NCBI GenBank assembly: GCA_030525825.1
Contig: JAUNDZ010000018.1
Span: 1-43,284, forward strand
Reading direction: 5' to 3'
Source: Moraxella sp.
Lineage (GTDB): Bacteria; Pseudomonadota; Gammaproteobacteria; Pseudomonadales; Moraxellaceae
Length of the DNA: 43,284 nt
The notes under the pieces are model-generated. The model made no database searches, was not told the DNA's origin, and saw only the letters and a program-made list of their open reading frames with translations. How positions within the stretch are numbered: the first letter of the stretch is position 1; each line of letters starts with the position of its first letter. The position numbers and the translations under genes are program-made. This document shows positions 415 to 3,932 of the stretch, one piece after another.

Positions 415-428
415 TTTGGCTTGATATT

Positions 429-468
429 AAAATCCACTCAAAGGGTATTTTGGGTGGATTTTTTATTT
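429..468 (+). terminator. Intrinsic terminator after thrS
   Basis: An 11-bp stem (429-439 with 452-462, one G-T pair) with a 12-base loop runs straight into a T-rich stretch. It lies 15 bases after the thrS stop and separates thrS from the accessory block. Confidence 0.8.
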
Positions 469-510
469 TAATTGGGTTATGATAATCAAAATGGTTTTTT
501 AGGAAAGTCT

Positions 511-900
511 ATGAAAAGTTTAAAAGTTTTGTTAATCTTTGGGACAATCATAATGAGCAATCAAAGTTTTGCAAATCCTACCAAATCCAATGTTACACCC
601 ATTGTTTTTGCTAAGGGTAGTCATTGTGGTAGTTTTAGCGGTGATATTGATAATCGTCAATTTACACTTTATCTTAATCAATCCCAAACACTTGAAATTC
701 TACTTAATGATGTTAGAGACATTTTTCCAACTGTTAAAAATCCAAAACACAAAATAGTCAATCCCGAATATGGCCCCTATTCAGAATATGTTGGCTATGC
801 TTATTTTATTAAAACAAAAGGTAAACACACCATCACCTTCAAAACAGATAGGGAGTATAAAGTCAATCCTTATGCAAAGATTGAATTTTGTGCTTATTGA
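511..900 (+). CDS. Small secreted beta-rich protein with one cysteine pair, unknown function
   Basis: This is a 129-residue protein I do not recognise by name. Residues 1-21 form a clear Sec signal peptide (MKSLKVLLIF, cleavage after SFA), so the mature protein should be exported. The start at 511 is chosen because AGGAAAG sits 4-10 bases upstream and the signal peptide begins there. Mature features are C39 in a GSHCGSFSG motif and C127 in the terminal IEFCAY motif, probably a disulfide closing the fold. Between them are alternating strand-like segments (FTLYLNQSQTLEILL, GKHTITFKT) that resemble the small beta-sandwich PPC-type domains. That resemblance is an inference by eye. The frameshifted gene at 2947 encodes a clear paralogue with the same two motifs. 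The gene is AT-rich compared with the housekeeping genes nearby. Confidence 0.7.
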   Translation: MKSLKVLLIFGTIIMSNQSFANPTKSNVTPIVFAKGSHCGSFSGDIDNRQFTLYLNQSQTLEILLNDVRDIFPTVKNPKHKIVNPEYGPYSEYVGYAYFIKTKGKHTITFKTDREYKVNPYAKIEFCAY

Positions 901-961
901 TTTTTTAAAATTTATTCAAAAACCTTGAATACTTTTTTGCTTAAAACAACTTGCCAATTTT

Positions 962-986
962 GTAAGGTGCGTAATACACACCTTAC
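962..986. repeat. 25-bp imperfect palindrome
   Basis: GTAAGGTG at 962-969 pairs with CACCTTAC at 979-986 around a short centre. There is no following T tract, so it looks more like a dispersed palindromic repeat than a terminator. Confidence 0.45.
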
Positions 987-1012
987 GATTTGCCATAATT
1001 TTATGACCCCAC

Positions 1013-1046
1013 AAAAATCCATTCAAGAAATTGAGTGGATTTTTTG
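1013..1046 (+). terminator. Hairpin with T tract, likely terminator of the 511-900 gene
   Basis: An inverted repeat (1013-1026 with 1031-1044, one internal mismatch) is followed by a run of T. It faces the + strand gene ending at 900, and its stem sequence resembles the thrS terminator. Confidence 0.6.
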
Positions 1047-1063
1047 TAAAAATTTAAAAGAAT

Positions 1064-1167
1064 TAGATCTCTTGCAAAACTAAAAAATAGTTAGGCTAAA
1101 GCCCTTGTTTTTGGTCATTGTTCTAAATTTAAAAACCTAGAAAAATCAAACTTTCGCAAGAAGTCTA
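1064..1167. mobile_element. MITE-like element with IS5-like terminal inverted repeats
   Basis: This is a segment of about 104 bp bounded by inverted repeats. Reading inward, the left end is TTAGATCTCTTGCAAAACT and the right end is TTAGACTTCTTGCGAAAGTT, about 15 of 19 matching. A possible TA target duplication lies at each edge. There is no coding capacity. The CTTGC-AAA type of terminus resembles those of IS5-family elements, so this is probably a non-autonomous derivative; that assignment is an inference. The right edge supplies the stop codon of the adjacent - strand gene. Confidence 0.5.
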
Positions 1168-2289
1168 ATAAAAATTGATTGCTGAGCATTCACCAAACAA
1201 TCCCGATGATACTGTCACACTAACAACCATCTCTCGACCAGAAGAGCGGTAAATACCTCGACAAGTATCATACCTGCCAGTAACATTATCAAAAAAATCA
1301 ACCTCCACCTGATAACTGCCACTTAACGAAGCTCCATACATAGATGAGACATTAACACCTCTGACATCGTCATGACCAAGACTTCCATTATTGTAAGCAA
1401 GAGTTCTACCATCAGCAGATCGCACACGCATGGCAGTGCAACGTGCAACACTACAATCATTTAAAACAAAGGAAATGACACTAACTTTCCGTTGTTCTGC
1501 TTGGCGTTTTAAATCTGCTTGGCGTTTTAAATTAGCAACTTGCAATTGCAACTCATCAACTACTTCTTTTTTGCAGGTGGTAACATTGGCATTATAAAAT
1601 CTTTCTATTTCAGCTGCGTTTTTTGCCTTTTCTGTAATTGGGTATACCTTAACTTCATATGCCCTAGCAAGATATTTATTATAAATTGAATTTATTGCAC
1701 CACTGCCATTTACCTTATTTTTTATTTGATCTTCTGGTGTATTCATAATTTTTGCCCTAATCGGACTTTTTAAGTAATACTGGCAAGCATTATCAGCAAA
1801 TTTCTCAATTTCACCCTGACTGGTATGGTTGGTTAACGACATTTCACTTGCAAGACCCTCTTTTTTGGATTGTGCCGTCAATTCATTGATGATTTTCTTT
1901 TTATTAGACATTTCGGTACGAAATTCCGATAGACAAACTGGCATATTTTTTTCATAAAAAGCATCTAAAACCTCCATATTTTTATCGCCCAAACGACTGG
2001 TATTACCTTGCGGATATATTTTTACTTTTAAACTTTCGGTAAGATATTTTGTCAAATGCCTTTGCAAACGAGCATATTCATATTGGTCAGATTCTTGGCT
2101 GGGTACTTGTAGTGATGACCTGATTTCTTGTTCACTGTAACCCTGCATTCTTTTTTTTAGAGGCGTTATGATTGCAATTTCGCAAAATTGTTCACTCACT
2201 TCCAATTCTTCTTGTGTTAAGTCAGCTGAGTATGAACTTGTACAAAATAATAACAGCATAGCAAGTGGCAACTTAAGATATCTTGTCAT
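1165..2289 (-). CDS. Secreted protein with two helical Cys-paired modules and a C-terminal beta domain, unknown function
   Basis: This 374-residue protein has a Sec signal peptide (residues 1-22, ending SSYSA). I do not recognise the family. Two successive predicted helical modules share a pattern. Module 1 runs from C36 to C119 and ends FYEKNMPVC. Module 2 runs from C169 to C239 and ends FYNANVTTC. Each contains a matching K(V)K(I/V)YP segment before the end. A charged linker (LKRQADLKRQAEQRK, residues 254-268) includes a six-residue tandem repeat. The C-terminal domain (about 270-374) has four cysteines (C279, C284, C343, C368) and alternating hydrophobic strands. The start at 2289 has GAGG upstream. 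The neighbour at 2361-2771 carries one copy of the same module. The stop TAG is the outermost base triplet of the adjoining MITE-like element, so the native 3' end may have been altered. Confidence 0.7.
   Translation of the reverse strand: MTRYLKLPLAMLLLFCTSSYSADLTQEELEVSEQFCEIAIITPLKKRMQGYSEQEIRSSLQVPSQESDQYEYARLQRHLTKYLTESLKVKIYPQGNTSRLGDKNMEVLDAFYEKNMPVCLSEFRTEMSNKKKIINELTAQSKKEGLASEMSLTNHTSQGEIEKFADNACQYYLKSPIRAKIMNTPEDQIKNKVNGSGAINSIYNKYLARAYEVKVYPITEKAKNAAEIERFYNANVTTCKKEVVDELQLQVANLKRQADLKRQAEQRKVSVISFVLNDCSVARCTAMRVRSADGRTLAYNNGSLGHDDVRGVNVSSMYGASLSGSYQVEVDFFDNVTGRYDTCRGIYRSSGREMVVSVTVSSGLFGECSAINFY
1497..1532. repeat. 18-bp perfect tandem duplication inside a coding region
   Basis: The unit CTGCTTGGCGTTTTAAAT occurs twice head to tail (1497-1514 and 1515-1532). 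It encodes the in-frame repeat LKRQA(D/E) in the linker of the 1165-2289 gene. Copy changes would alter linker length by six residues without a frameshift. Confidence 0.85.
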
Positions 2290-2301
2290 TTTTTTTCCTC
2301 A

Positions 2302-2336
2302 TAAAAAAGCCCTATTAAATATACTTAATGGGGCTT
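2302..2336 (-). terminator. Intergenic hairpin terminator or attenuator between the two helical-module genes
   Basis: A 12-bp stem with one mismatch (2307-2318 with 2325-2336) is followed on the - strand by a run of T. It lies between the stop of the 2361-2771 gene and the start of the 1165-2289 gene, so it may reduce read-through into the downstream gene. Confidence 0.65.
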
Positions 2337-2360
2337 GTTATTTCTTCAACTATCATTCAA

Positions 2361-2771
2361 TTATTTTTTCTGCATTTTGGTTTGTTTTTCCACACATAAA
2401 TCATAATGCTTTTTTGTAAACTGTTCAATATGCCTTTCTAATTTAATTTGCCCACGCTGTTTAGGTTGTTTTGAGATTTCATCAAGAATACTTACTGTAT
2501 AATCCACAGATCTTCCTGTTGCTGTTTTAAAAAAATCTGTTTTTGGAAGAGCTTCAATAAATTCTTGCGTTTCTTTGTCCAATAAGTTACGTAATTCCTT
2601 TGAAGTCGCACCTTTTTGCTGTGCATCTAAAAGTACTGGCAAAAAACTATCAACCAATGTACATGAAACCGTTGGATTAGGGTTTAATATGTCATCATCA
2701 GCATAAGCATGACCGCCAGTCAAACCCAATACAAGCATTAGTACAGCTGGCAAAGAAGTAAGTTTTTTCAT
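2361..2771 (-). CDS. Small secreted protein with one helical Cys-paired module, unknown function
   Basis: This 136-residue protein starts with a Sec signal peptide (MKKLTSLPAVLMLVLG, cleavage near HAYA, residue 24). The start at 2771 is preferred over a GTG nine bases earlier because AAAGGTGA lies just upstream of the ATG. The mature part is mostly predicted helix, with C37 and C126 near its two ends and the closing segment KKHYDLC. That matches the closing segments of the two modules in the downstream protein. I infer that the two genes share a domain family of unknown function. Its promoter contains an 8-base poly-G tract between -35 and -10 sequences (see 2796-2833), so expression may be phase variable. 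No catalytic motif was seen; it could be an adhesin accessory factor, an inhibitor or a lysozyme-inhibitor-like protein, but nothing proves this. Confidence 0.7.
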   Translation of the reverse strand: MKKLTSLPAVLMLVLGLTGGHAYADDDILNPNPTVSCTLVDSFLPVLLDAQQKGATSKELRNLLDKETQEFIEALPKTDFFKTATGRSVDYTVSILDEISKQPKQRGQIKLERHIEQFTKKHYDLCVEKQTKMQKK

Positions 2772-2795
2772 ACAAATCACCTTTGTTAACTAAAA

Positions 2796-2833
2796 ATTAT
2801 ATTATCATCTTATCACCCCCCCCGCATTGTCAA
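2796..2833 (-). promoter_or_regulatory. Promoter with poly-G(8) tract between -35 and candidate -10 boxes
   Basis: On the - strand a perfect TTGACA (2828-2833) is followed by ATGC, then eight G (2816-2823 as C on the + strand), then several -10-like hexamers. These are TAAGAT at 2807-2812 (spacer 15), GATAAT at 2801-2806 (spacer 21) and TATAAT at 2796-2801 (spacer 26). None has the ideal 17-base spacer at the present tract length, but a change of a few G would create one. This is the classic layout of transcriptional phase variation. The ATG of the regulated gene is at 2771. Confidence 0.6.
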
Positions 2834-2946
2834 GAGTTCTTTAATGCTTTATGGAATTGAGATGAAAATTAGATAATTTTGAGAGATATATTGTTTTTTG
2901 ATTTTTGGTAGAATGTGTTTAGTTTCTTATCAATTAAGGAGTATTT

Positions 2947-3298
2947 ATGAAAGCCTTAAAAATTTTGGCAGTGTCTGCTTTATTGACATTAAGCGAACAA
3001 GCTTTCTCTCAAACTACACCCGATTAAATTTGCTAAAGGTAGTTATTGTGGCAGCTTTAGCGGTAATTACGCCAAACGCACTTTTACCATTCATTTAGGC
3101 AAAGGACAGACATTGGCGATCAGTGGAGCAGAAGGTGTTCGAGATATTATCGTCAAAAGCCCTAATGGTAAAGTATTACCATACAAAGGACAGGATTATG
3201 CCGAATGGATTACTCGTATGAAAGGCAATCACACCATTAAACTTATCCCTTATAGTAAGAGCAACACCTACACCAATATCGAGTTTTGTGCTTACTAA
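2947..3298 (+). pseudogene. Frameshifted paralogue of the secreted protein at 511-900
   Basis: The gene begins with ATG at 2947 behind a strong AAGGAG site and encodes a signal peptide (MKALKILAVSALLTL, cleavage near SFS). The reading frame hits TAA at 3025-3027, right after ACACCCGAT. One extra base near 3019-3022 explains the break. From 3020 the other frame continues without interruption to TAA at 3296-3298 and encodes PIKFAKGSYCGSFSG and a terminal IEFCAY. These match the corresponding motifs of the 511-900 protein, including its ACA CCC ATT codon context. The ancestral protein would be about 117 residues. The lesion could be a real decay event, a reversible slip in a three-C run, or a sequencing error. 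A hairpin terminator follows. Confidence 0.75.
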
Positions 3299-3303
3299 TT
3301 AGC

Positions 3304-3331
3304 AAACCTGCTCAATAAAGCAGGTTTTTAT
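3304..3331 (+). terminator. Intrinsic terminator after the frameshifted gene
   Basis: A 9-bp perfect stem (3304-3312 with 3319-3327) with a 6-base loop is followed by T residues, immediately upstream of the infC promoter. Confidence 0.8.
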
Positions 3332-3349
3332 TTACACACCAAAAACCCC

Positions 3350-3378
3350 TTGAATTCCCCAAAATTTTTAAGTAAAAT
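3350..3378 (+). promoter_or_regulatory. infC promoter
   Basis: TTGAAT at 3350-3355 and TAAAAT at 3373-3378 are separated by exactly 17 bases. Transcription would begin about 25 bases before the AUU start, so infC has its own promoter here rather than depending on thrS. Confidence 0.6.
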
Positions 3379-3410
3379 AAAAGTCTATATTTTTATTTGG
3401 AGTATGACTT

Positions 3411-3932
3411 ATTAAACCGTCAAACCGTTTGAATATCAATGAAGATATTCGTGCCAAAGAAGTCCGTCTGGTTAAAGAAGACGGCGAGCAATTGGGTGTA
3501 GTAGATTTAAAAACTGCTTTAAAAGCTGCCAGCGATGAAGGATTGGATTTGGTTGAGATTGTGCCTGATGCCAAGCCGCCCGTTGCCAAGATTATGGACT
3601 ACAAACGCTATTTGTACGACCAAAAACAAAAGGCAAAAGAAGCCAAAAAGAACCAAAAACAAACCCAAGTCAAAGAAATCAAACTTCGCCCTGGTACCGA
3701 AGAAGCGGACTATCAGGTCAAGCTGCGTAAGATTGTGGAGTTTTTGGAAGACAAAGATAAAGTCAAAGTCTCCATTCGTTTCCGTGGTCGTGAGATGGCT
3801 CACCAAGAAATCGGTAAAGCTCAGCTAGAACGCATCATCAAAGACACCGAAGAGATTGCCAGTGTTGAACAAGCACCGAAAGTCGAAGGTCGTCAGATGG
3901 GCATGCTGCTTGGTCCTGCCAAGAAAAAGTAA
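3411..3932 (+). CDS. infC: Translation initiation factor IF-3
   Basis: IF-3 binds the 30S subunit, blocks premature 50S joining and checks the initiator tRNA-start codon pairing. The 173-residue product has the N-terminal domain ([15 protein letters not shown], about residues 6-20), the lysine-rich linker and the C-terminal domain ending in [13 protein letters not shown] and [15 protein letters not shown] are family hallmarks. The start is ATT at 3411: GGAG lies 8 bases upstream at 3399-3402, the frame is closed by TGA at 3405-3407, and no ATG or GTG fits the conserved N terminus. The AUU start is known from E. coli infC, where it allows IF-3 to repress its own translation; the same control is likely here. 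rpmI and rplT, often next in this operon, do not follow. Confidence 0.95.

Follow-up and report, generated by a model that had tools for sequence, protein, structure and literature searches.

The question raised by this locus is whether a run of eight G, lying upstream of a small gene for an exported protein in a Moraxella sp. genome, serves as the adjustable spacer of a promoter, such that changes in its length would turn the gene up or down. The stretch of DNA analyzed here (the window) comprises 43,284 nucleotides, and a preliminary description of it had proposed a phase-variable promoter of this kind. We find the underlying observation to be sound, and the interpretation to be plausible on sequence grounds and strengthened by comparison with related genomes.

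On the minus strand, TTGACA is followed by ATGC, the G8 tract, and, directly 3′ of the tract, TGATAAGATGATAATATAAT, after which comes a short leader with AAAGG (Table 1); all of this lies in a divergent intergenic gap of 175 bases. The preliminary description had reported TTGACA, ATGC, G8, and −10 hexamers at spacings of 15, 21, and 26 on this strand, and direct reading bears out both its coordinates and its spacings. Its further claim, that these were three alternative −10s of which none is optimal at G8, proved too simple: the three spacings stand, but it had missed GATGAT, already at spacing 18, and the TG ahead of TAAGAT, with which TGATAAGAT fits an extended −10 that may tolerate a spacing of 15. 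TATAAT, 26 bases away, is an unlikely partner for TTGACA. A homopolymer is present between −35 and −10 hexamers in the order TTGACA-ATGC-G8-TGATAAGAT, the −10 part of which is within chance in shuffles. The pair TTGACA and GATGAT scored 10/12, the top of 9 matches in a consensus scan of positions 2000-3500. We rejected this promoter score as evidence, since dinucleotide shuffling of the 175-base gap reached it, at spacings of 15-19, in 114 of 1000 trials. The gene had been said to start at 2771 and to encode an exported product, and there is indeed an ATG at that position, followed by a signal-peptide-like start as judged by eye.

Table 1. Features of the putative promoter and its genes in the window, with the Opacity-family genes found at other Moraxella loci (positions within each locus)
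Feature	Position	Strand	Basis or remark
−35-like hexamer TTGACA (6/6)	2833-2828	−	direct reading, consensus scan
ATGC between TTGACA and G8 tract		−	
G8 tract, proposed variable spacer	2823-2816	−	direct reading, run count
Extended −10-like element TGATAAGAT	2807..2815	−	preferred −10 candidate
TAAGAT (4/6), hexamer within TGATAAGAT	2812-2807	−	spacing 15 from TTGACA
GATGAT (4/6)	2804..2809	−	spacing 18 from TTGACA
GATAAT (5/6)	2806-2801	−	spacing 21 from TTGACA
TATAAT (6/6)	2801-2796	−	spacing 26 from TTGACA
AAAGG, ribosome-binding-site-like	2784-2780	−	direct reading; 8 bases upstream of ATG
ATG of 136-aa gene	2771	−	short leader precedes
136-aa orphan protein, putative phase-variable gene	2361..2771	−	N-terminal signal-peptide-like segment by eye
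Imperfect hairpin then T run, between the two minus-strand genes	2302..2336	−	folding energy
374-aa orphan, exported-looking, downstream on same strand	1165..2289	−	open-frame reading
Opacity-family porin gene	L128:764-1333		
Opacity-family porin gene	L146:714-1442		
Opacity-family porin gene	L146:1674-2291		
Opacity-family porin gene	L147:848-1435		
Opacity-family porin gene	L148:1560-2243		

The tract is the sole run of at least seven G or C in the window, and hence the longest. The genome (1.82 Mb) holds eight such runs, and G8, as one of its five runs of at least eight, is long for its genome; two of the other four are G9. Under a first-order Markov model, 0.61 runs of at least eight are expected in the window, where one is seen, and by this expectation the tract would be unremarkable. 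That argument was dropped: for the whole genome the same model expects 25.6 such runs against the 5 seen, and since it overstates long runs to this degree we used the genome's own rate instead, which is about 0.12 per window. TTGACA lies 0-8 bases upstream of one of the genome's eight G7+ runs, namely the window tract. Based on the frequency of TTGACA in the window, the chance of the hexamer ending 0-8 bases upstream of a G run is about 0.0046 per run, and that of its adjoining any of the eight G7+ runs about 0.04. On the other side of the tract, a −10 of 4/6 at spacing 15-19 occurs in 35% of 2000 leader shuffles, while TGnTAnnT in the first five offsets has a shuffle chance of 0.033 in a test that was picked after inspection of the sequence. 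The perfect −35 adjoining the tract is unusual, and the −10 hexamers are not.

A comparison with relatives bears more directly on function. The pattern searched, TTGACA-N0-8-G7+, was modelled on the window's own site, and the genus set consisted of 22 genomes, one per species and including that of the window (G000); matches to G8 in these genomes range from 0 in G007 and G014 up to 144 in G016, overlapping matches being counted. The genus yielded 18 raw matches, 2 of them the window's, against 0 in the reversed control, and these resolve into 10 distinct sites in 6 of the 22 genomes; without the window's own site, 9 remain, spread over 5 of the other 21. The family set of 199 genomes includes the same 22, and the remaining 177 gave 12 distinct sites from 14 raw matches with 23 in the control, which is no excess. 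Among the genomes sampled, the excess of TTGACA-poly-G sites is confined to the genus, and its absence from the rest of the family favors a real poly-G spacer promoter. When a −10-like hexamer was required at spacing 15-19, with A2 and T6 present and 4/6 or better, 9 of the 10 genus sites had one versus 3 of the 12 outside, as did 6 of 10 versus 3 of 12 when at least 5/6 was asked for; with the window site left out, the genus figures are 8/9 and 6/9. The spread of spacings from 15 to 19 at the genus sites carries no weight, as the search was confined to that range. TAAGAT stands immediately 3′ of a G11 tract at genus locus L091, and TGATATAAT stands 3′ of G11 at L124. One genus site, at L092, has no −10 and falls inside a 444-aa open frame; it is probably a chance match. 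The window site has TTGACA before a G7+ run, lies outside long open frames (the longest stop-free frame across it is 33 codons), and has an exported protein downstream, the signal peptide being judged by eye.

These comparisons also bear on a simpler reading, in which the promoter is constitutive, the G8 sits in its spacer by accident, either GATGAT at 18 or TGATAAGAT at 15 is used, and the tract is too stable to make a difference. The spacing of 18 falls in the normal range, G8 would be one of the shorter tracts among those that slip frequently, and the genome's four other runs of at least eight are not 3′ of TTGACA, showing that long G runs also arise outside such promoters. We nonetheless hold this reading to be fairly unlikely in view of the genus excess, which has no counterpart in the rest of the family, and of the tract lengths at the 10 genus sites, which range from G7 to G14.

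The genus was also searched for poly-G tracts with a −10-like TANAAT close behind. The pattern G7-N0-8-TANAAT gave 55 raw matches versus 16 in the reversed control, corresponding to 30 distinct sites (counted from the listing) in 12 of the 22 genomes. The window's genome contributed no TANAAT within 0-8 bases 3′ of a G7+ run, and in this respect the window site is atypical of the genus poly-G sites. We examined 23 of the distinct TANAAT sites (loci L120-L148), the remainder being without a locus or having identical surroundings, and at 12 of the 23 the frame that closely follows begins like a signal peptide or a lipoprotein, as judged by eye with inner start codons allowed. Some sites clearly are not promoters of this type: by eye, both at L126 are in repeated sequence, and that at L134 lies ahead of a transposase-like frame. 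Eleven proteins behind genus poly-G sites were located and 10 scanned for families (L131 was left out), in a hand-picked rather than random sample. Five of these 10 are Opacity porins (E 6.4e-31 to 1.8e-21); the others comprise one Fimbrial protein, one SBP_bac_3, one DUF4407, one without a family, and one with a weak MotA_ExbB match barely over the cut-off. At all five Opacity-family genes, a poly-G tract of G8-G15 stands 0-1 bases ahead of TANAAT. Opacity proteins in Neisseria are switched by coding repeats; their Opa-like counterparts in Moraxella may be switched at the promoter.

As a separate observation (L088:1569-2852 and L091:1589-3019), the promoter-like G10 and G11 sites of L088 and L091 adjoin SMC-like frames that by eye are near-identical, while the membrane-protein genes that the two sites precede differ, one having the weak MotA/ExbB match and the other being DUF4407. 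The first of the two, to judge by resemblance, might be part of a defence system.

The product of the window's gene is an orphan. The 136-aa protein has no Pfam family over the cut-off (one lies below it, at E 0.011), no NCBIfam match, a best PHROGs E value of 0.12, and no match at E 0.001 in the 21 other genus genomes. Against the contigs of the wider genome collection it matched three Saprospiraceae loci over only 26-37 residues at E 1e-6 to 6e-6, values that are relative to the candidate stretches only; we took these matches to be chance. The 374-aa protein encoded downstream likewise has no Pfam family over the cut-off and no NCBIfam match, its best PHROGs E value is 0.49, a comparison with viral contigs returned no match, and in 347 other family genomes there is one marginal match, at E 0.003 over 93 residues. 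A tblastn search of plasmids found no match for either protein, nor did the region's DNA match any plasmid. The N-terminal part of the 374-aa protein is internally duplicated, with a score equalled by 0 of 500 shuffles, and the two related repeats contain cysteines. Its predicted fold is poor (mean pLDDT 45.7), reaching moderate confidence only in places beyond about residue 270, and the C-terminal part is predicted as strands with low to moderate confidence. When the 136-aa protein was aligned with this neighbor, 10 of 500 shuffles did as well for the first repeat, 42 of 500 for the second, and 13 of 500 when the C-terminal part was used; a relationship between the small protein and the first repeat is thus only suggested.

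Between the two genes, the hairpin has a folding energy of −11.3 kcal/mol on the minus strand and −16.2 on the plus strand (for stretches of slightly different length), and the consensus scan reported it on the plus strand only. It is a possible terminator, and with this hairpin and its T run between the genes, the 374-aa gene may depend on read-through.

Both orphan genes sit between a synthetase-like gene (7-414), whose end matches an anticodon-binding domain and which we take as thrS, and infC. Both flanking genes were matched in 11 of 19 relative loci, where the gap between the two matches measures anywhere between about 0.1 and 3.1 kb; that of the window is 3.0 kb (415-3428). In G004, which has the most similar infC (98% identity), the gap is occupied by other DNA with no match to the window's genes. 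The content of this stretch, as well as its length, varies between species of the genus. Because both differ between relatives, positions 415-3428 are on this comparison a fast-changing, variable stretch. Absences are perhaps uninformative in G007, which yielded neither infC nor a G8 run, and in G015 (63% complete), which yielded no infC. The divergent gene 2947-3298 (+) shares 44% identity over 110 aligned positions with an intact exported-looking gene at 511-900 (+) and looks like a frameshifted relative of it. Relatives of the gene at 511 occur near infC in three loci (L013, L040, and L041), and its comparison with solved structures gave one weak match (E 0.042).

Such a stretch could also harbor no switch at all: the promoter likeness would be a product of chance in AT-rich DNA, with the true promoter elsewhere, or the island would be decaying and its gene silent. 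The apparent frameshift of the gene at 2947 is consistent with this, as are the 11% of shuffles that reach the promoter score and the lack of a match for the 136-aa protein in the 21 other genus genomes, for which reason selection cannot be demonstrated. We consider it improbable, however, given that four bases separate a perfect TTGACA from the tract, for which the chance is about 0.04 over eight G7+ runs, given that both minus-strand genes are intact open frames, and given the presence of a ribosome-binding-like site.

A poly-G spacer promoter of the fetA type is the best reading, mainly because of the genus comparison, and we think it somewhat probable that the G8 tract is the spacer of a length-switched sigma-70-type promoter for gene 2771-2361. 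The phase-variable interpretation put forward earlier gains from the anatomy and from a genus excess absent from the rest of the family, and needs amending in its too simple picture of the −10s. Anatomy, tract rarity, and the genus-wide excess of the architecture are matters of observation; we infer promoter activity, slippage, the −10 that is used, and any benefit to the cell. In the proposed mechanism, the G8 spacer would form part of a sigma-70-type promoter driving the 136-aa gene, and slipped-strand gain or loss of G would alter the distance from TTGACA to a −10, most likely TGATAAGAT. Transcription of the small exported protein would then rise or fall randomly from cell to cell, and the 374-aa gene would perhaps be switched with it through read-through. 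At G8, with TAAGAT at spacing 15, the promoter is probably in its low state; by simple arithmetic, the spacing would be 17 at G10. G8 is short for a switch tract and could be a fixed feature.

The tract might instead act in some other way than through −35/−10 spacing, for example by setting how far away a regulator site lies upstream. The region is a divergent gap of 175 bases, and the available text of PMC2791445 reports that repeat length controls nadA by way of distal promoter elements and their spacing. We regard such a route as very improbable here, the tract lying between the −35 and −10 candidates and not upstream of them.

Taken across the genus, the data suggest to us, tentatively and at somewhat short of an even chance, that poly-G spacer promoters of the genus's own switch exported proteins, both Opacity-family porins and species-specific orphans, and that the fast-changing synthetase-infC island has brought a new exported pair under such control. 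If this is true, an orphan exported protein joins the switchable genes of the genus. Taken alone, the window site is modestly interesting. More useful is the excess across the genus, with Opacity porins encoded downstream of some sites, and the comparison supplies a set of candidate poly-G promoters for Moraxella that would lend themselves to immediate testing with ordinary read data. Among the literature matches listed, mostly from outside subscription journals, no title concerned genus-wide poly-G spacer promoters, which is weak evidence of absence.

The kind of mechanism, a poly-G promoter switch, is already known, and the window site looks like one more member. The poly-C of opc in Neisseria is located within the promoter spacer, and the poly-G of uspA1 lies close to the reading frame, within the leader, rather than between −35 and −10. 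As far as the available text of each source goes, the poly-C of fetA/frpB of Neisseria lies between −10 and −35 and its length sets promoter strength (PMC5320596); porA is classed there as transcriptional, with a paper on its spacing in the reference list (PMC5320596); and 11 versus 12 C in the promoter poly-C of opc give different expression (PMC3447861). The window site resembles all three in having a homopolymer in a promoter, here a putative one. It differs in that their variation and its effect have been measured, whereas those of the window site are predicted, in that its tract is G8 with a weak −10 nearby, and in that it precedes the gene of a small orphan exported protein and not that of a known outer-membrane protein.

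The preliminary description had also invoked poly-G control of uspA1 in Moraxella catarrhalis, and rightly so: in the available text of PMC7302503, a poly-G tract upstream of the uspA1 reading frame alters transcript level, with G8-G10 low and G11-G12 high in strain 195ME, and G9 low and G10 high reported for two other strains. Transcription is thus known to be under poly-G control in the likely genus. That G8-G10 are all low in one strain, as given in that text, counts against a G8 switch. The window site shares with uspA1 a poly-G tract upstream of a reading frame, but the product of uspA1 is a large adhesin and its tract belongs to a leader rather than to a spacer.

Comparable sites also occur within the genus. 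Unlike the window protein, which is without a Pfam family over the cut-off, the genes concerned encode Opacity-family proteins, and TANAAT stands 0-1 bases past their tracts, whereas in the window TAAGAT is 3 and TATAAT 14 bases past. What the window site has in common with those at L128, L146 (twice), L147, and L148 is a poly-G tract between −35-like and −10-like elements and an exported product downstream.
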